In this document: one piece after another, positions 14,070-22,525 of the stretch
Layout: every line of letters starts with the position of its first letter
How positions within the stretch are numbered: position 1 is the stretch's first letter
Assembly (NCBI GenBank): GCA_019750915.1
Contig: JAIENY010000005.1
Location: 78,952-142,951, forward strand
Reading direction: 5' to 3'
DNA length: 64,000 nt
Origin: Xanthobacteraceae bacterium
Lineage (GTDB): Bacteria; Pseudomonadota; Alphaproteobacteria; Rhizobiales; Xanthobacteraceae
The notes under the pieces: model-generated
What the model was told of the DNA's origin: nothing
The model's input: only the letters and a program-made list of their open reading frames with translations
Database searches by the model: none
Made by a program: the position numbers and the translations under genes

Positions 14070-15287
14070 TTAGATGTGCCTGATCTTGAAAAGGCTCACG
14101 TCGATCGTTTTTCGAAGAAACCCGATCTCACAATAAGCCAGGTAATATTCCCACATTCGCTTGAAGTGAAGATCGAACCCTAATTCCTCGATCTCGCTCC
14201 AGGATGCCAGAAATCGCGAACGCCAATCGCGCAATGTCTGTGCATAGCTTAGTCCAAAGGACTCCTGCCTTGCGATCTGAAGACCTGCCTTCGTGAGCTC
14301 CCGCTTGATGATATCGACCGTGGGCAACATTCCTCCTGGAAAGATATAGCGCTGAATAAAGTCCGGGCACTCGCGGTATTTCTTAAAACGATCGGGCGCG
14401 ATCGTTATGATTTGCAGGGCACCACTGCCCTGTTCAGCCAGGCACGATTTCAGCTTCTGAAAATAGGTTGTCCAATATTGTTCGCCCACAGCCTCGAACA
14501 TTTCGATTGAAACAACCCGGTCAAAGCGACCGGATATCTCCCGGTAATCCTGAAGGCGAACGTCCGCACGCCCCACAATTATATCCGACAAAAGACGTTC
14601 TCTGGCGTGGCTCAACTGTTCCTCGGATAACGTCACCGCCGTAACGCGAGCATCATGTTTTCGAACGAGATGCTCGGCCAACGCGCCCCATCCACAACCG
14701 ATTTCGAGGATATGCTGGCCACCAGATAATTCCAGGTATTCCGAAACTCGCTCTAGCTTCGATCTCTGCGCCTCTTCGAGAGTCTCTTCTCCGTTGTAGA
14801 TTGCCGAGGAATAAACCAGGTCCTTATCGAGCCAGCATCGGTAGAAGTCATTCCCGAGATCATAGTGCGCGGCGATATTTCTTCTGCTCCCGGCCTTCGT
14901 ATTCCTGTTGGCTCGGTGCTGCAGCCGATCGAGGAATTGCGCGAAATAAGAATCGGTCGCTGAAGAAAATCCCGTCTCGTTGCAAATACAAAAATCGAAA
15001 AGTCCAACGAGATCGGGCGTCGACCAGTCACCCGCGATGTAACCATTCGAAAACCCAGCCTCTCCGGATCTGACAATACGCCATATGCCCCGCCAACGAT
15101 GCACTGTCATCACGGCGCCGGGGCCCGGTTGTTGCCCGCGCAAATCGATATGACCCCCGTCCGGAAGAAAGATCCGCAAATGCCCCACATCCGGCTGAGG
15201 AAGAAACCGGCTGAACAGCCGAGCCAGCAGCCCGGGCTTCGATACGGACGCGCCCGCTGAAATCGACTGCGCTTCTATCTGGTTCAT
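14070..15287 (-). CDS. Cyclopropane-fatty-acyl-phospholipid synthase family methyltransferase
   Basis: A 405-residue SAM-dependent methyltransferase of the CFA type, which modifies double bonds of membrane lipid acyl chains. The SAM site is ILEIGCGWGALAEHL. VTAVTLSEEQLSHAR and VVSIEMFEAVGEQYW follow in the usual order, and the C-terminal helical region includes YIFPGGMLPTVD and a WEYYLAYCEIGF motif near the end. The start is the ATG at 15287, which overlaps the DUF1365 stop as ATGA; the track start at 15389 is inside DUF1365. It is the third gene of a tightly coupled trio read from a predicted RpoE-type promoter. The product could be a cyclopropane or a methylated/furan fatty acid precursor. 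Confidence 0.9.
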   Translation of the reverse strand: MNQIEAQSISAGASVSKPGLLARLFSRFLPQPDVGHLRIFLPDGGHIDLRGQQPGPGAVMTVHRWRGIWRIVRSGEAGFSNGYIAGDWSTPDLVGLFDFCICNETGFSSATDSYFAQFLDRLQHRANRNTKAGSRRNIAAHYDLGNDFYRCWLDKDLVYSSAIYNGEETLEEAQRSKLERVSEYLELSGGQHILEIGCGWGALAEHLVRKHDARVTAVTLSEEQLSHARERLLSDIIVGRADVRLQDYREISGRFDRVVSIEMFEAVGEQYWTTYFQKLKSCLAEQGSGALQIITIAPDRFKKYRECPDFIQRYIFPGGMLPTVDIIKRELTKAGLQIARQESFGLSYAQTLRDWRSRFLASWSEIEELGFDLHFKRMWEYYLAYCEIGFLRKTIDVSLFKIRHI

Positions 15288-16072
15288 CGCGAGGCCCCGC
15301 CGTTCGAAACAATCGTGACAGAATGAACGTCTTTTGGAGCGCGAGGATAGAGACGAAAACCTCGCAACACCATACGCAACGCATGCCAATGAATCGCCGC
15401 CACCACCTTTAAGGTCAGCAGCGGATACATCAAAATGGCTTTTAAAAGCGCGGTGTCCGACAGATCTGCTCGTGTCCCGGACAGAACCGCGGTAATCAGC
15501 GGGCCCTCTTTATCATCGCCGCGGATCGCAATTTTGATTGAACCATCCGGAGGATGAACACGAAATTGATAAGATATGTCCATCCCAAGGAAGGGAGACA
15601 CATAAAATTCCTTGGCGCATTGCTGCTTGATGACATCACGATCCATTGCCTCGCAGGGAACAACGTAGCTGTGTCGCTCACCGAAAGTATTATGAACTTC
15701 GTATATGATCGCCGCTAAAACGCCGTCTCGCCGATAACAAAAGAACACGCTCAGCGGATTGAAGCCGTATCCGAGAATACGCGGCATGCAAAACAGCATG
15801 ATTTTTCCACCGACCGCATCGATACCCGATTTCTCAAGAAGAGCATCGATCTGACCATGGAGCGACAATTTACTCGTTCCGCCATGATCCCCGTCGTGAA
15901 AGCTGACAAGATTGAAACGATTATGCGAAAATAATTTCAGTTTGGCGGACAGCAGGCCGATCTCATCAACGTCCAGCATCATCCAGAATACCCGGTATCG
16001 CAGCCTGTGAATATGTGGCCGCAACCGGTGATGCATCACGCTTCCCGCATAGAGGCACGGCGACCGCGTCAT
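15284..16072 (-). CDS. DUF1365 domain protein
   Basis: A 262-residue DUF1365 protein. CLYAGSVMHHRLRPHIHRLR and YRVFWMMLDVDEI at the N-terminus are typical, as are FNPLSVFFCY and the YEVHNTFGERHSY segment in the middle. The family's biochemical activity is not established, but members are nearly always found between a flavin amine-oxidase-like protein and a CFA-type methyltransferase, as here. Both junctions are four-base ATGA overlaps, which implies fixed stoichiometry and a shared pathway in acyl-chain modification. The start at 16072 removes a 24-residue track extension into the upstream gene. Confidence 0.9.
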   Translation of the reverse strand: MTRSPCLYAGSVMHHRLRPHIHRLRYRVFWMMLDVDEIGLLSAKLKLFSHNRFNLVSFHDGDHGGTSKLSLHGQIDALLEKSGIDAVGGKIMLFCMPRILGYGFNPLSVFFCYRRDGVLAAIIYEVHNTFGERHSYVVPCEAMDRDVIKQQCAKEFYVSPFLGMDISYQFRVHPPDGSIKIAIRGDDKEGPLITAVLSGTRADLSDTALLKAILMYPLLTLKVVAAIHWHALRMVLRGFRLYPRAPKDVHSVTIVSNGGASR

Positions 16073-17409
16073 GCTGCCTGACTTGCCATTGCCGCGATCT
16101 GGCGTTCGATATGGATGCGACCCGATTGGTTCTCGACATGCCATGGACGCTTCACTTCTCCGAGTTGCTCGGCGACGGCAAGTCCCGCCTGTAAGCCGTC
16201 TTCATGAAAGCCCGCCCCGAAATATGCGCCACAAAACCAAATGCGATTTTTACCTTGTAACGACCAAAGTCGTTTTTGCGCAGCCATTGCCCTGACGTCG
16301 AAGACCGGATGCTCGTAGCTCTCTTCGCGCAGGATATTCTGAGGCTCCGTCGACGGATTCAAGGTCACGAAAAGATTTTCTTGTGTTGGCAATTGCTGCA
16401 ATGCATTCAACCAGTAGGTTACCGCAGGACTCCGGCTGATAGCCTCGCGATCCTTTCCTATATAATTCCAGCTGGCCCAGACGGTGCGACGTCGTGGCAT
16501 CAGCCCGGGATCATTGTGGAGCACCGCGCGATTCTGGCTGTATTGAAATGCGCCCAAAATGTCCTCTTCATCCTTCGTCGGATCGCATAACAGGGCGAGC
16601 GCTTGATCAGCATGAGTTGCGACCACGACCTCATCGTACAATTTCGAATGGCCGTCGCTCCCCTGGACTTCAACCTTTGGTCCCGCGCGGCGGATCGCGA
16701 CGGCACCGCAGCCGAGACGAACGTCCAGCTCGCGCATCAACTTCTGTACATAGATCCGGCTTCCGCCAGTCACGGTTCTCCACTGCGGCCGGTTTCGGAT
16801 CCTGAGCAGTCCGTGATTATCGTGAAACCGGATAAAAGAGGCCGCCGGATATTGCAGCATAAGCGAAGGCGACGCCGACCATATCGCAGCCGCCATCGGC
16901 AAAAGATGGTCTTCGCGGAACGCCGAACCGTAGGCTCCGGCGACGAGGTAGTCCTGAAGGGATAACTCTTCATCAAGCAAAGCCAGATCGCGCGGCGCTT
17001 CGCGGTAAAACCGCCACAGATCTGCGAGCATCGACCAGAACCGCGGCCGAAACACATTGGACCGCTGCGCAAAAAGGCCATTCAGGCTGCTTCCGGAGTA
17101 TTCGAAATCTCCATCCGTCAGCGAAACCGCAAATGACATTTCCGACTGCTGCGTGGGTACACCCAAATGATCAAACAGCGCCGTGAGATTGGGATAGGTC
17201 GCCTCGTTGTAGACGATGAATCCGGTATCAACGGAGACCACGCCCTCGGCAGTATCAATCGCCACAGTATTTGAGTGCCCTCCCGGACGTTGGGCTTGCT
17301 CGTAGACCGTCACATCGTGAACCCGGTTCAGGAGCCACGCTGCGGAGAGCCCGGAGACGCCAGTTCCAATGATTGCAATTGCTTTTTTTGGCACACCCGC
17401 CCCTGACAT
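16069..17409 (-). CDS. FAD-dependent amine-oxidase-like oxidoreductase
   Basis: A 446-residue flavoprotein. The Rossmann dinucleotide site is IAIIGTGVSGLSAAWLLNR, followed by the GG doublet region YEQAQRPGGHSNT, both typical of the amino-oxidase/desaturase family. VTGGSRIYVQKL lies mid-protein and a C-terminal FAD-contacting segment reads IWFCGAYFGAGFHEDGLQAG. I start at the ATG at 17409, since the predicted promoter -10 lies only about 20 bases upstream; the track start at 17670 would cross that promoter. With so short a leader no clear Shine-Dalgarno is visible. It heads the trio with DUF1365 and the CFA-type enzyme. In Rhodobacter, related enzymes belong to the RpoE response; a desaturase-like step on fatty acids is my inference. 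Confidence 0.88.
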   Translation of the reverse strand: MSGAGVPKKAIAIIGTGVSGLSAAWLLNRVHDVTVYEQAQRPGGHSNTVAIDTAEGVVSVDTGFIVYNEATYPNLTALFDHLGVPTQQSEMSFAVSLTDGDFEYSGSSLNGLFAQRSNVFRPRFWSMLADLWRFYREAPRDLALLDEELSLQDYLVAGAYGSAFREDHLLPMAAAIWSASPSLMLQYPAASFIRFHDNHGLLRIRNRPQWRTVTGGSRIYVQKLMRELDVRLGCGAVAIRRAGPKVEVQGSDGHSKLYDEVVVATHADQALALLCDPTKDEEDILGAFQYSQNRAVLHNDPGLMPRRRTVWASWNYIGKDREAISRSPAVTYWLNALQQLPTQENLFVTLNPSTEPQNILREESYEHPVFDVRAMAAQKRLWSLQGKNRIWFCGAYFGAGFHEDGLQAGLAVAEQLGEVKRPWHVENQSGRIHIERQIAAMASQAA

Positions 17410-17428
17410 CTTGTTGATGCTTACAGAT

Positions 17429-17458
17429 GAGATACGCACAGAGCTTGGGTTTGGATCA
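17429..17458 (-). promoter_or_regulatory. Predicted RpoE (ECF) promoter for the flavoprotein-DUF1365-CFA operon
   Basis: On the minus strand TGATCC (17458-17453) and TATCTC (17434-17429) are separated by exactly 18 bases. This matches the TGATCC-N18-TA type of promoter known for the RpoE-ChrR group of sigma factors. The predicted transcript starts about 12 bases before the gene. Confidence 0.72.
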
Positions 17459-17468
17459 CCGGCGCAAA

Positions 17469-17498
17469 TGATCCAAAACGGTCGCTCATGCGTATCAA
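17469..17498 (+). promoter_or_regulatory. Predicted RpoE (ECF) autoregulatory promoter for rpoE-chrR
   Basis: TGATCC (17469-17474), an 18-base spacer and TATCAA (17493-17498) lie on the plus strand, back to back with the minus-strand promoter. The -35 elements are only ten bases apart. It would give an rpoE leader of roughly 100 bases. Confidence 0.72.
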
Positions 17499-17602: not shown

Positions 17603-18175
17603 ATGCGCAGTGACACTGGAAAACTGATCCCGCCACGCAGCGCGGAATCGCTTGTTTTTCTGATCGCCACCCAACGTGACCGCGATGCCTTCAGGGAGCT
17701 TTTCGAGTTTTACGCGCCCCGCATCAACACCATGCTTGCGAGAAGCGGGGCGCCCGCGGATTTGGCTGAAGACCTTGCCCAGGAAACATTGATCACCGTC
17801 TGGCATAAGGCGAAGGTTTATGATCCCGCCCGCGCAACTGTATCGGCGTGGATCTTCACAATCGCCCGAAATCTCAGGATCGATCGTTTTCGCCGTGATC
17901 GACGCGCGAAGCTGCACGAGGTTTACGAGCTCGTTCAGCCGGAGAATACCCCCTCACCCGAAGAGCCGTTCGAAGCGGCCGAACAGGAGAGTTTGGTCCG
18001 CGAGGCGATGCAGAACCTGTCGGACGAACAAGTCCGCGTTGTCGAGCTGTCCTTTTTCGAAGGCCGCGCACACGGCGATATCGCCAAGATGCTCGGTATA
18101 CCACTTGGTACGGTTAAGTCGCGCTTGCGCCTGGCGATGCAGCGGCTGCGCAATTTTCTTGGTGAAAACAAATGA
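17603..18175 (+). CDS. rpoE: ECF sigma factor RpoE (ChrR-controlled group)
   Basis: A 190-residue ECF sigma factor. Region 2 spans about residues 25-95 (DLAEDLAQETLITVWHKA, then WIFTIARNLRIDRFRR), which melts the -10 element. Region 4 spans about 130-185 (EQVRVVELSFFEGRAHGDIA, then IPLGTVKSRLRLAMQRLR), which reads the -35 element. I start at the ATG at 17603 because the track start at 17369 lies upstream of the predicted promoter. The stop overlaps the next gene by four bases, and that gene encodes a ChrR-type zinc anti-sigma factor, which identifies this as the singlet-oxygen/peroxide-responsive group. Targets probably include its own promoter and three others in this window. Confidence 0.93.
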   Translation: MRSDTGKLIPPRSAESLVFLIATQRDRDAFRELFEFYAPRINTMLARSGAPADLAEDLAQETLITVWHKAKVYDPARATVSAWIFTIARNLRIDRFRRDRRAKLHEVYELVQPENTPSPEEPFEAAEQESLVREAMQNLSDEQVRVVELSFFEGRAHGDIAKMLGIPLGTVKSRLRLAMQRLRNFLGENK

Positions 18176-18804
18176 CCATAACCCACCATCCAAGCGACGA
18201 AACGCTCGCCGCATTTGCTTCGGGCACTCTTGATGAAGCTCGGAGCATCGTTGTTGCAGCGCATGTATCGCTGTGTGCCAGATGCCGCGCGACCGTACAT
18301 GCGCTCGAGCAAATCGGCGGTGCCATGGTCGAGCGCGCAGAGCCGGCGCCCTTGCGGGCCGAAGCTATCGAAGCAGTGATGTCCCGCCTCGATTCAAACA
18401 GCGACGTGTCAGCACGGCCGCACGTACCGAAACAGGATTACCCTCTCGCGCTGAGTCCCTACGACGTAGGGCCGTGGCGACGGATCGGGCGCGGGCTCTA
18501 TTGGAGAAAGGCCGATGTATATTCGCAGGATGGCACACGCGTCTTCATGCTGAAGGCCGCTCCCGGAACATGGCTCCCCCATCACCGCCACGCCGGCACA
18601 GAATGGACCTGCGTTCTCGCGGGCGCTTTTCATCACGACCTCGGCCGATATGGGCCCGGCGATTTCGATGAAGCCGATGAAAGCGTCGAGCACAGACCGT
18701 TTGTGGAACAGGGTGCGACTTGCGTCTGTCTCGTCGCGCTTCAGGGCGGACTTAAACTTCAGGGCTGGATCGGGCGCCTGCTGCAACCCTTTGTGCGGCT
18801 CTAG
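18172..18804 (+). CDS. chrR: ChrR-type zinc-binding cupin anti-sigma factor
   Basis: A 210-residue anti-sigma factor with both ChrR domains. The N-terminal zinc anti-sigma domain has His6, His31, Cys35 and Cys38, the same spacing and numbering as in Rhodobacter sphaeroides ChrR. The C-terminal cupin carries the second metal set: His138, His140 and Glu144 (HHRHAGTEW) and His174. The first domain holds RpoE inactive in the cytoplasm; the cupin is needed for release on singlet oxygen. It overlaps rpoE by four bases, as expected for a sigma/anti-sigma pair. All metal ligands are present, so the switch should be functional. Confidence 0.95.
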   Translation: MTITHHPSDETLAAFASGTLDEARSIVVAAHVSLCARCRATVHALEQIGGAMVERAEPAPLRAEAIEAVMSRLDSNSDVSARPHVPKQDYPLALSPYDVGPWRRIGRGLYWRKADVYSQDGTRVFMLKAAPGTWLPHHRHAGTEWTCVLAGAFHHDLGRYGPGDFDEADESVEHRPFVEQGATCVCLVALQGGLKLQGWIGRLLQPFVRL

Positions 18805-18857: not shown

Positions 18858-19682
18858 ATGACAGCCTCGGTTTTTTTCATGGGTGCAGCGATCATCGCCC
18901 TGGCGCTGTCGATCAACATGACGCTTGCATGGCTGATCTGGCGCGCGACAAGAAATTCCGGATGGATCGATACGGTGTGGACGTTTGGAATCGGCGCGAT
19001 CGGCAGTTGCTCCGCGCTTTTTCTTTTCCGTGAAGAACCGGGATTTCGAGGCTGGCTTATCGTTGCAATGGCGCTTGTATGGTCGCTGCGGCTTGGGTTT
19101 CATATTGCGCGGCGCACCGCTGGAATCACTGATGATCCCCGTTACGCCAGGCTTGTCCGCGAGTGGGGAGCGAGCGCGTCCAGCCGGATGTTCTGGCTAT
19201 TGCAGAACCAGGCTCTCGTCAGCATTCCACTTGGCATGGCCATGTGGCTCGCGGCCCGTCACCCTCAGCCAAACCTTTTGCCCGGTGATATGATTGGCAT
19301 ACTCGTCTTCGCCGTCGCTGTTCTCGGTGAAGCGATTGCCGATGAGCAACTCCGCCGCTTTAGAAGAAAAGCTGAGAATGACGGGCGCATCTGCGACACC
19401 GGTCTCTGGGGCTGGTCGCGTCATCCGAATTATTTTTTTGAATGGCTGGGCTGGCTCGCCTATCCGATGATCGCGACGGACTTCACCGGAGCCTATCCGT
19501 GGGGAATTGCCGCTTTCGCAGCGCCGGCCTGTATGTACTGGTTACTGGTTTACATCTCCGGCGTACCTCCATTGGAGGCGCACATGCTCGAAAAACGTGG
19601 CGATGAATTCCGTAAGTACCAATCGCGCACTAACGTCTTCTTTCCCGGGCCACCGAAAGCCACCATTGGAGCACTCAAATGA
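18858..19682 (+). CDS. DUF1295 (steroid 5-alpha-reductase-like) membrane protein
   Basis: A 274-residue polytopic membrane protein. RNSGWIDTVWTFGIG near residue 35 and DTGLWGWSRHPNYFFEWLGW near 185 are the DUF1295 hallmarks; the latter resembles the NADPH-binding C-terminal motif of steroid reductases and isoprenylcysteine methyltransferases. It is separated from chrR by 53 bases and overlaps the next CFA-type gene by four bases. The likely role is in lipid reduction or modification together with that enzyme. It may be read from the rpoE promoter, since no separate promoter is visible in the short gap. Confidence 0.88.
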   Translation: MTASVFFMGAAIIALALSINMTLAWLIWRATRNSGWIDTVWTFGIGAIGSCSALFLFREEPGFRGWLIVAMALVWSLRLGFHIARRTAGITDDPRYARLVREWGASASSRMFWLLQNQALVSIPLGMAMWLAARHPQPNLLPGDMIGILVFAVAVLGEAIADEQLRRFRRKAENDGRICDTGLWGWSRHPNYFFEWLGWLAYPMIATDFTGAYPWGIAAFAAPACMYWLLVYISGVPPLEAHMLEKRGDEFRKYQSRTNVFFPGPPKATIGALK

Positions 19683-20707
19683 GCCTTGCACGGGCAGCAA
19701 TCCATGTCGGCGAAGCCTTCGCATGGCCCGATGCATTGAGCTCCTTCGTCATCGATCGCCTCGTCGATCGAACCCGGCGTAAGCTGCAAGCGGGCTCACG
19801 CGACGAGGACGAGTCCTTTGCACGGGCCATGAGAGATTTTCCGATTGCCATCAACACCGCCGAGGCAAATACGCAGCATTATGAAATTCCAGCCGAGTTT
19901 TTTGGCCTCGCACTCGGACCGCAACGCAAATATTCTTGCTGTCTCTATGATAAGGGCGTCAATTCACTGGCCGATGCCGAAGAGCACGCACTCGCCGCCA
20001 CCGCGGAAAATGCTCAACTTCAAGACGGCCAGGATATTCTGGAATTGGGCTGCGGATGGGGCTCGTTGTCGCTATGGATGGCGCACCGATTCCCACACTC
20101 CCGCGTCACATCTGTCTCCAACTCGCACTCGCAGCGCCAATATATAATGGGTGCCGCCCGAGAACGGGGCCTTGGCAATCTCGCAGTCGTCACGGCGGAC
20201 ATGAACGAATATGTCCCCTCCTCGGCATTTGATCGCGTGATATCAATCGAGATGTTCGAACACATGATAAACTGGCGCCCGCTTCTGGAACGCATCAATC
20301 GCGCACTCCGGCCGGGCGGCTCATTGTTTCTCCATGTCTTCAGTCATAGGGCGGCATCCTATCGCTTCTGTCCGGATGACCGCGACGACTGGATCGCGCA
20401 GCATTTCTTCACCGGAGGAATCATGCCGAGCCATCAGCTCATCCGGCAGTTCCCCGACATTTTTCGTGTCGATCAGGAATGGCAGTGGAGCGGTCAACAT
20501 TATGCAAGAACAGCCCGTGATTGGCTTGCGAATTACGATCAGAACGATTCCGAAATTTTCGATGTACTAAAGCGAGTCTACGGTAACGACGCGCGCCTAT
20601 GGCAACGCCGATGGCGCCTGTTTTTTCTCGCAACGATCGGGCTATTCGGGCATGCAGATGGCAAGGAGTGGGGTGTCAGTCACTACAGACTTTCTCCATC
20701 GCACTAA
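19679..20707 (+). CDS. CFA-like SAM-dependent methyltransferase, second copy
   Basis: A 342-residue methyltransferase related to CFA synthases. The SAM site is ILELGCGWGSLSLWM, followed by SVSNSHSQRQYI and VISIEMFEHMINW; HFFTGGIMPSHQL and the C-terminal WRLFFLATIGLFG region match the family. It is clearly divergent from the other CFA-type protein of this locus (14070-15287): it lacks the N-terminal lipid-presentation region and differs after the SAM site. The pair is therefore unlikely to be redundant. Four-base overlap with the DUF1295 gene implies a joint step. A role in making an unusual methylated lipid under RpoE control is inference. Confidence 0.88.
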   Translation: MSLARAAIHVGEAFAWPDALSSFVIDRLVDRTRRKLQAGSRDEDESFARAMRDFPIAINTAEANTQHYEIPAEFFGLALGPQRKYSCCLYDKGVNSLADAEEHALAATAENAQLQDGQDILELGCGWGSLSLWMAHRFPHSRVTSVSNSHSQRQYIMGAARERGLGNLAVVTADMNEYVPSSAFDRVISIEMFEHMINWRPLLERINRALRPGGSLFLHVFSHRAASYRFCPDDRDDWIAQHFFTGGIMPSHQLIRQFPDIFRVDQEWQWSGQHYARTARDWLANYDQNDSEIFDVLKRVYGNDARLWQRRWRLFFLATIGLFGHADGKEWGVSHYRLSPSH

Positions 20708-20739: not shown

Positions 20740-21150
20740 TTACGAAAACCAGCGTGACGTCGCGCGCAAGACAAGAATTCCAGATAACGACGCGATTCCC
20801 GACACCAGCGCTCCGTAGGCAATATCGATCGCGGTGATCTGCAAAGTCCAGTTACGCAATGTCGCAAAATTGGTTAAATCGTAGGTTGCGTACGCAATAG
20901 CGCCGAATAACAACCCATAACCGAAAGCCGATATGGCGGAATTCTCACGCATCGCTGGAAAGACCGCGAACACCAGAAGTCCGACTGGGTAAATCAGATA
21001 GAATGCAAGCGCGGGTGCAAGACGCACGTCCTCGACAAGAATATCTCCCAGAGTAGGACGATATAACAGCCGGCCCATTGCTGATAACCAGGCGGCATCG
21101 ACAGCTCCGAAAATCAACAGGACGCTCACATATCCGACCAAATATTTCAT
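20740..21150 (-). CDS. DUF2177 membrane protein
   Basis: A 136-residue protein with about four hydrophobic helices. FGAVDAAWLSAMG and LAPALAFYLIYPVGLLVFAV near the N-terminus and YATYDLTNFATLRNW in the middle are the conserved DUF2177 blocks. The start is the ATG at 21150, preceded by GGGAGAGAG; the track start at 21216 would cross the promoter. DUF2177 genes recur next to RpoE-ChrR modules and lipid genes. Biochemical function is unknown. A good RpoE-type promoter lies just upstream, which places it in the same regulon. Confidence 0.88.
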   Translation of the reverse strand: MKYLVGYVSVLLIFGAVDAAWLSAMGRLLYRPTLGDILVEDVRLAPALAFYLIYPVGLLVFAVFPAMRENSAISAFGYGLLFGAIAYATYDLTNFATLRNWTLQITAIDIAYGALVSGIASLSGILVLRATSRWFS

Positions 21151-21170: not shown

Positions 21171-21200
21171 CTAATACGATCCGACTGGAACTCTGGATCA
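21171..21200 (-). promoter_or_regulatory. Predicted RpoE (ECF) promoter for the DUF2177 gene
   Basis: On the minus strand TGATCC (21200-21195), 18 bases, then TATTAG (21176-21171). Spacing and elements match the two promoters between the flavoprotein gene and rpoE. The leader would be about 15 bases. Confidence 0.7.
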
Positions 21201-21237
21201 GTCGCAAAAGACCCAAGACAAAAAATACGCCTTCGGG

Positions 21238-21267
21238 TGATCCAGGCGCCCCTGAACTCCGTACTAA
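21238..21267 (+). promoter_or_regulatory. Predicted RpoE (ECF) promoter facing the small CxxC gene and the hydrolase
   Basis: TGATCC (21238-21243), 18 bases, then TACTAA (21262-21267) on the plus strand. It is divergent to the DUF2177 promoter and repeats the back-to-back layout seen at 17.4 kb. The -10 is slightly less typical than the others. Confidence 0.55.
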
Positions 21268-21339: not shown

Positions 21340-21504
21340 ATGTGCAAAAAGTGTTTGGAACTCGATAAGAAAATCGAACGTGGCCGCCGAATGGCGGAAT
21401 CGATTTTGACGGACAGGAAATTGAAACTCGAAATCAAAATCTTCATAGCCGATCTGGAGCAGGAAAAGAGCTTACTTCATCCCAAACCAACGAAAGAAAT
21501 TTGA
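21340..21504 (+). CDS. Small CxxC protein of unknown function
   Basis: A 54-residue frame missing from the ORF track, beginning MCKKCLELDKKIERG and rich in Lys, Glu and Arg. An N-terminal CxxC precedes what looks like one or two charged, possibly coiled, helices (LKLEIKIFIADLEQEKSLL). Codon use looks coding and no gene lies opposite. There is no clear Shine-Dalgarno. It sits about 70 bases after the predicted RpoE promoter and before the hydrolase gene. A redox- or metal-sensitive small protein is conceivable, but no function can be assigned. Confidence 0.5.
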   Translation: MCKKCLELDKKIERGRRMAESILTDRKLKLEIKIFIADLEQEKSLLHPKPTKEI

Positions 21505-21559
21505 GCGCCGAACACCAAATCGATCGAACGAAACCAAGCCTCGTTATCGCCACTTTCGG

Positions 21560-22525
21560 ATGGCCGCATTCATGTGGCCCGCGTCGATGATGCTGGCTGT
21601 ATTAACGCTGACGCTTGCGTTTCTGGCGATCGTGACACAGGTCGGTACCGTCTGGCTTGAGCGGAAATATCCGCCGCAAGGTCGCTTTATTCATGTCAGC
21701 GGGGCCAAACTTCATATTTCGGAAATCGATCCAAATCGCTCATCGGGATTACCAATCGTCCTGATCGCAGGAGCAAGCTCAAGCCTCGAAACGATGCGCT
21801 ATCCACTCGGTGAACACCTCGCTCGCAATCATCGTGTCGTTTTGATTGATCGTCCTGGCCAGGGATGGAGCACGCGCGAGCGACGCACCGACTCCACACC
21901 CGCCATCCATGCCCGCATGATCCATGACGCGCTCGATCAACTCAACATCGACCGGGCGATCTTTGTCGGGCACTCGTGGGGTGGCGCGGTGATCCCGGCG
22001 CTCGCCGTTGCTTATCCGAAACGTGTTGCTGGCCTCGTCATGATTTCGGCAGTTGCCTATCCGTGGAAGGGAGACGTCGATTGGATCTATCGCGCGTCCG
22101 CCACACCCGTCATTGGACCGCTACTGGCCCATACTGTCGTGCTGCCGTATGGCTTGCTGGCCCTCGATACTGCCCTGCGCTCTGTCTTTTATCCACAAAG
22201 ACCACCGGATAATTATTCGGATCAGACGCAAATCCGGCTTGTCCTGCGTCCGGATACGTTTCTGAATAACGCTTGGGATCTTGCGTCACTGCGATCCGCT
22301 CTGGCCAGCCAGTCGCAGGATTACCCTCGGATCACAGCGCCGATTACCTTGATCGCCGGCGACAGCGACACCGTGGTTTCGACCGACATCCATTCGCGGC
22401 AATTTGCCAGATCGCTGACGCAGGCCAAGCTCGTGGTGTTGCCGAACACCGGGCACATGCCTCAGATGACGGCCAGTGATGTGGTCGAACGCGAAATCGA
22501 GGACATGTTGCGGGGTTCGATCTGA
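21560..22525 (+). CDS. Alpha/beta hydrolase with N-terminal membrane anchor
   Basis: A 321-residue hydrolase. A hydrophobic N-terminal segment (MLAVLTLTLAFLAIVTQVG) anchors or exports it. The alpha/beta-hydrolase core follows: oxyanion region VLIAGASSSLETM, the strand-loop VVLIDRPGQGWST, nucleophile elbow GHSWGG (Ser at about residue 144), acid residue in IAGDSDTVV and the catalytic His in PNTGHMPQM. All three catalytic residues are present. It is related to lactonase/haloperoxidase-like hydrolases; the substrate is unknown. It may be expressed from the upstream RpoE-type promoter, which would add an esterase or lipase step to that stress response. Confidence 0.88.
   Translation: MAAFMWPASMMLAVLTLTLAFLAIVTQVGTVWLERKYPPQGRFIHVSGAKLHISEIDPNRSSGLPIVLIAGASSSLETMRYPLGEHLARNHRVVLIDRPGQGWSTRERRTDSTPAIHARMIHDALDQLNIDRAIFVGHSWGGAVIPALAVAYPKRVAGLVMISAVAYPWKGDVDWIYRASATPVIGPLLAHTVVLPYGLLALDTALRSVFYPQRPPDNYSDQTQIRLVLRPDTFLNNAWDLASLRSALASQSQDYPRITAPITLIAGDSDTVVSTDIHSRQFARSLTQAKLVVLPNTGHMPQMTASDVVEREIEDMLRGSI

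Follow-up and report, generated by a model that had tools for sequence, protein, structure and literature searches.

The window, the whole 64,000-nucleotide stretch of Xanthobacteraceae DNA that was analyzed, contains an ECF sigma factor gene of the ECF11 (RpoE) type adjoining a gene for the anti-sigma factor ChrR, surrounded by furan-fatty-acid-type genes. A divergent pair of predicted promoters lies 2-4 kb away at 21171-21267, between a DUF2177 gene and a 54-codon open reading frame (ORF). The features, in window positions, are:

14070-15389, minus: CFA-synthase-family gene, last of the flavoenzyme-DUF1365 operon (PF02353, E 1.3e-82; start codon uncertain)
15284-16144, minus: DUF1365, UfaO-like (PF07103, E 1.7e-78; start codon uncertain)
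16069-17412, minus: FAD-dependent amine-oxidase-family enzyme, UfaD-like (PF01593, E 1.1e-19)
17429-17458, minus: predicted ECF11 promoter for the operon of the UfaD-like flavoenzyme, UfaO-like DUF1365 and a CFA synthase, at the same position in about ten relatives
17469-17498, plus: predicted ECF11 promoter of the sigma-chrR-DUF1295-CFA synthase (UfaM-like) operon, at the same position in about ten relatives
17603-18175, plus: ECF sigma factor, ECF11, RpoE type (PF04542, PF04545)
18172-18804, plus: ChrR anti-sigma factor (TIGR02451, 184 bits, above the 124.5 cut-off)
18858-19682, plus: DUF1295 membrane protein (PF06966, E 1e-59)
19679-20707, plus: CFA-synthase-family methyltransferase, UfaM-like (PF02353, E 3.9e-37)
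20740-21150, minus: DUF2177, four-helix membrane protein, 136 aa (PF09945, E 2.6e-39)
21171-21200, minus: predicted ECF11 promoter for DUF2177 (-35 TGATCC at 21200-21195, N16, -10 CGTATTAG at 21178-21171)
21238-21267, plus: predicted ECF11 promoter facing the CxxC-hydrolase unit (-35 TGATCC at 21238-21243, N16, -10 CGTACTAA at 21260-21267)
21340-21504, plus: 54-codon gene for a small MCxxC protein
21529-21535, plus: CGAAACC, possible relic of an ancestral -35 box of the hydrolase
21560-22525, plus: membrane-anchored alpha/beta hydrolase, 321 aa (PF00561, E 4.9e-29; a later ATG may be the true start)

The first-pass annotation had described the pair as TGATCC-N18-TATTAG on the minus strand and TGATCC-N18-TACTAA on the plus strand, and both are present, ending at 21171 and 21267, respectively. 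Their layout is indeed shared with a pair at 17.4 kb, in the gap separating the ECF sigma and flavoenzyme genes, where TGATCC-N16-CGTA also occurs at 17458 (minus) and 17469 (plus). The motif can be drawn more sharply than before: the CG preceding TA, which had been missed, is common to all four sites and part of the element, giving TGATCC-N16-CGTA with CGTA boxes at 21178-21175 (minus site) and 21260-21263 (plus site). This is the ECF11 consensus determined by ChIP-seq in P. syringae (PMC5507510), and it matches the R. sphaeroides RpoE promoter TGATCC-N15-GCGTA (PMC5036791) in both boxes and in the 16 bases between them; Shewanella RpoE2 promoters with mapped starts agree with the same consensus (PMC4336711).

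The cognate sigma factor encoded nearby has ECF regions 2 and 4, and ChrR retains all eight zinc ligands of its anti-sigma and cupin domains (H6, H31, C35 and C38; H138, H140, E144 and H174), the counterparts of those listed for R. sphaeroides ChrR (PMC6852236). "RpoE" at this locus is the R. sphaeroides-type sigma factor, not E. coli RpoE. Site 17469 precedes the sigma operon and is the same promoter, as autoregulation would predict from sequence. Since the sites at 21171-21267 are identical to the measured consensus and a sigma factor with a complete ChrR lies close by, we assign them to the local ECF11 sigma; both passed every available sequence test and are predicted to be ECF11 (RpoE-ChrR) promoters.

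The clustering of the four sites is far from random expectation. The 3.35-Mb genome contains 8 exact matches to TGATCC-N16-CGTA, four of them within 3.8 kb at this locus, and spacers of 14, 15, 17 and 18 bases gave 4, 3, 1 and 4 matches. With the background taken as ~3 per genome, the Poisson probability of such a cluster is ~6e-12, in line with the earlier judgment that four sites so close together are unlikely by chance. A looser pattern was found twice in the 64-kb window versus 0.10 expected from shuffles. Three further exact matches in the genome lie inside genes (a parB pair and lon) and were rejected as promoters. The remaining exact match is intergenic and aimed at hemA (5-aminolevulinate synthase), ~125-150 bases before its start (L097 1526; contig C69:33201-33226, minus).

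On the minus side, the promoter ends ~20 bases before the DUF2177 ATG, with a GGGAG ribosome-binding site in between. An AlphaFold2 model of the protein shows four helices (pLDDT 95.5), and a fold search of this model against the PDB returned no match at E <= 0.001. We compared 69 DUF2177 genes out of 151 related genomes, in which ChrR was scored in a separate search. TGATCN-N16-CGTA was present upstream of 25/48 DUF2177 genes in ChrR-positive genomes versus 0/21 in ChrR-negative genomes (Fisher p 8e-6, with related genomes not being independent), and the same motif with spacers of 14, 15, 17 or 18 bases had zero matches across all 69 upstream regions. The exact site was missing for 23 of the 48; in some of these cases DUF2177 lies downstream within the sigma operon or carries a one-base motif variant, and others are unexplained. 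Alignment of the upstream regions showed that the two boxes are kept while the spacer drifts, and in 12-16 kb loci from about ten named relatives exact sites occurred only at the sigma/flavoenzyme pair and at DUF2177. Together these comparisons strongly support DUF2177 as an old, conserved target of the RpoE-ChrR sigma factor. The consensus of EcfG, the general stress sigma, is of the GGAAC type, unlike TGATCC. Several other ECF sigmas are encoded in this genome, and one of them, EcfG for example, could in principle use the TGATCC-N16-CGTA sites, but the ECF16 consensus also differs (GTAACC-N16-CGAA; PMC3420878) and the motif before DUF2177 is confined to ChrR-positive genomes, so we consider use by another ECF sigma very unlikely.

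A role for DUF2177 as an ECF11 target fits with observations in Chlamydomonas, where a DUF2177 gene is induced by singlet oxygen together with DUF1295, DUF1365, CFA1 and CFA2 in a response that needs SAK1 (PMC4067076); that system resembles this one in the co-induced families and differs in being eukaryotic, with an unrelated regulator. The R. sphaeroides RpoE-ChrR regulon shares the sigma/anti-sigma pair, the promoter consensus and relatives of ufaD, ufaO and ufaM, whereas its named targets in the literature searched include neither DUF2177 nor the CxxC gene or the hydrolase. That search found no paper placing DUF2177 in an ECF11 regulon, although Dufour et al. (2008), on the core regulon, could already list it.

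What stands across from DUF2177 varies, and the divergent slot beside it appears to take different genes in different relatives. Two loci (L162 and L163) have a divergent ECF11 site ~150 bases upstream of DUF2177 that faces a small secreted-looking protein, which may resemble DUF2147. Bradyrhizobium diazoefficiens SZCCT0138 (L070) keeps all three ECF11 sites even though sigma and ChrR are absent from the block, and a ChrR of 46% identity is located elsewhere in its genome.

In our window, the 54-codon ORF and the hydrolase gene lie downstream of the plus site, as the first-pass annotation had proposed. Homologues that match the ORF over its full length, at 36-47% identity, occur in the genomes of two relatives and on plasmids of Bradyrhizobium (one is annotated as WP_283040386.1), so it represents a real small family; these homologues are too few for a comparison of the motif upstream of them to carry weight. 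The ORF is GC-poor (42%) and lacks a clear ribosome-binding site. On the same strand, 55 bases after it, begins the hydrolase, whose translation contains a GHSWGG nucleophile motif. In its layout the site recalls Pos19 of R. sphaeroides, an RpoE-dependent RNA of 219 nt in which a small ORF is translated (PMC5036791), and the plus promoter might likewise yield a small RNA, regulatory or dual-function, that spans the CxxC ORF, with the hydrolase merely read through. We think this quite improbable: a hydrolase gene follows closely here, and the CxxC homologues share an aligned MCxxC start, which favors a protein function.

The earlier extension of the regulon to DUF2177 and the CxxC-hydrolase pair is thus strongly supported for DUF2177; the rightward promoter matches the consensus perfectly, but the genes it faces are not conserved. 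In no relative examined does the CxxC-hydrolase pair stand behind an ECF11 promoter, and TGATCC was found upstream of 0/28 hydrolase homologues, which does not fit a conserved regulon member. Most of these homologues instead have a different element: YGAAAC-N16-CGTA is conserved in 21 of the 28 with upstream sequence (loci L165-L188), where it precedes the hydrolase match by ~50-80 bases, with one more at N17. In the window, CGAAACC directly before the hydrolase lines up with the GAAAC box in 12 homologues but has no CGTA 16 bases after it; it is possibly a relic of the ancestral hydrolase promoter, and could be a chance match. Conceivably, only the DUF2177 promoter works, with a plus site that matches by chance or is non-productive and a hydrolase read from another start. 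The unshared gene content and the CGAAACC box would fit such an arrangement. We nevertheless consider it unlikely, given that the plus site is a perfect ten-base match with the right spacer in non-coding DNA, 38 bases from a conserved site, against a background of only ~3 such matches in 3.35 Mb, and that CGAAACC has no -10 partner. We interpret the CxxC-hydrolase unit as a lineage-specific recruit to the ECF11 regulon. A hydrolase is a plausible target because the P. syringae ECF11 sigma PSPTO_1043, which shares the TGATCC-N16-CGTA promoter, also drives an esterase/lipase-family gene (PSPTO_4843, 10-fold induced; PMC5507510); the hydrolase locus there is a different one and DUF2177 is not listed.

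The second promoter type also occurs before DUF2177. Among the same 69 genes, YGAAAC-N16-CGTA was upstream of 7/21 in ChrR-negative genomes versus 0/48 in ChrR-positive genomes, and the 32 genes with either motif split completely by ChrR (probability 3e-7 under an independence of genomes that does not hold). As many ChrR-negative DUF2177 genes are distant homologues (31-39% identity), the cleanest cases of a switch are two Afipia loci, one from Afipia clevelandensis (L072) and one from a second member of the genus (L073). Both keep DUF2177, CFA synthase, DUF1295, the flavoenzyme and DUF1365 but lack the sigma, neither genome (the second of which is incomplete) has a ChrR match, and both carry YGAAAC-N16-CGTA at all three module promoters (L072 7945, 10411 and 10491; L073 2668, 5129 and 5208). 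A. clevelandensis also has TGAAAC-N16-CGTA before two fasciclin-domain genes (L258 2573 and 3391); downstream of the second lie genes resembling cytochrome b561 and sulfite oxidase. These families were assigned by reading translations.

A possible reader of the YGAAAC promoters is a SigK-like ECF sigma paired with an anti-sigma of the RskA type (genome G013, 2309486-2310028). Orthologues (at least 69% identity) were present in 19/21 genomes with a YGAAAC hydrolase promoter versus 3/8 without (p 0.008, ignoring kinship and the choice of one sigma among several), and none was found in the window's own genome, whose assembly is 83% complete. A search upstream of the A. clevelandensis ECF sigmas and of the SigK-like sigma gave no YGAAAC self-promoter, so the connection is one of co-occurrence and this sigma is a candidate. 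The GAAAC boxes of the B. japonicum EcfQ class (PMC3420878) offer only a lead to its identity. On balance we lean toward a model in which singlet-oxygen genes swap between two ECF regulons through a rewritten -35 box (TGATCC versus YGAAAC) with the spacer and the -10 CGTA unchanged: DUF2177 and the furan-fatty-acid operons would be on YGAAAC in Afipia lacking ECF11-ChrR, the hydrolase would have moved the opposite way here, and the second sigma may be the SigK-like one.

For the pair at 21171-21267, the sites and their spacing, their conservation, their link to sigma and ChrR and the mutual exclusion of the two promoter types are all read from sequence, and it is highly probable that the local ECF11 sigma uses them as a divergent promoter pair, the left serving DUF2177 as a conserved target and the right serving the CxxC-hydrolase unit as a lineage-specific recruit. 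Singlet oxygen or organic hydroperoxides would inactivate ChrR, and the freed sigma would bring RNA polymerase to TGATCC-N16-CGTA. Leftward transcription would produce a DUF2177 mRNA with a short leader, encoding the small membrane protein whose gene travels with furan-fatty-acid genes, and rightward transcription an mRNA for the small MCxxC protein and the membrane-anchored hydrolase. The furan-fatty-acid pathway includes ufaD, ufaO (DUF1365) and ufaM (PMC7380195), and by family the neighboring genes would perform this chemistry; DUF2177 may act in membrane lipid defense and the hydrolase on damaged acyl esters.

The promoter pair is thus best seen as a well-made part of an already known singlet-oxygen regulon, and what is less ordinary is the apparent movement of genes from one ECF promoter type to another. 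Our results connect DUF2177, an uncharacterized membrane family, with the singlet-oxygen response of bacteria, in agreement with its induction in a green alga, and open its role to direct tests. The clean separation of the two promoter types would provide a natural experiment in how a stress regulon survives losing its sigma factor.
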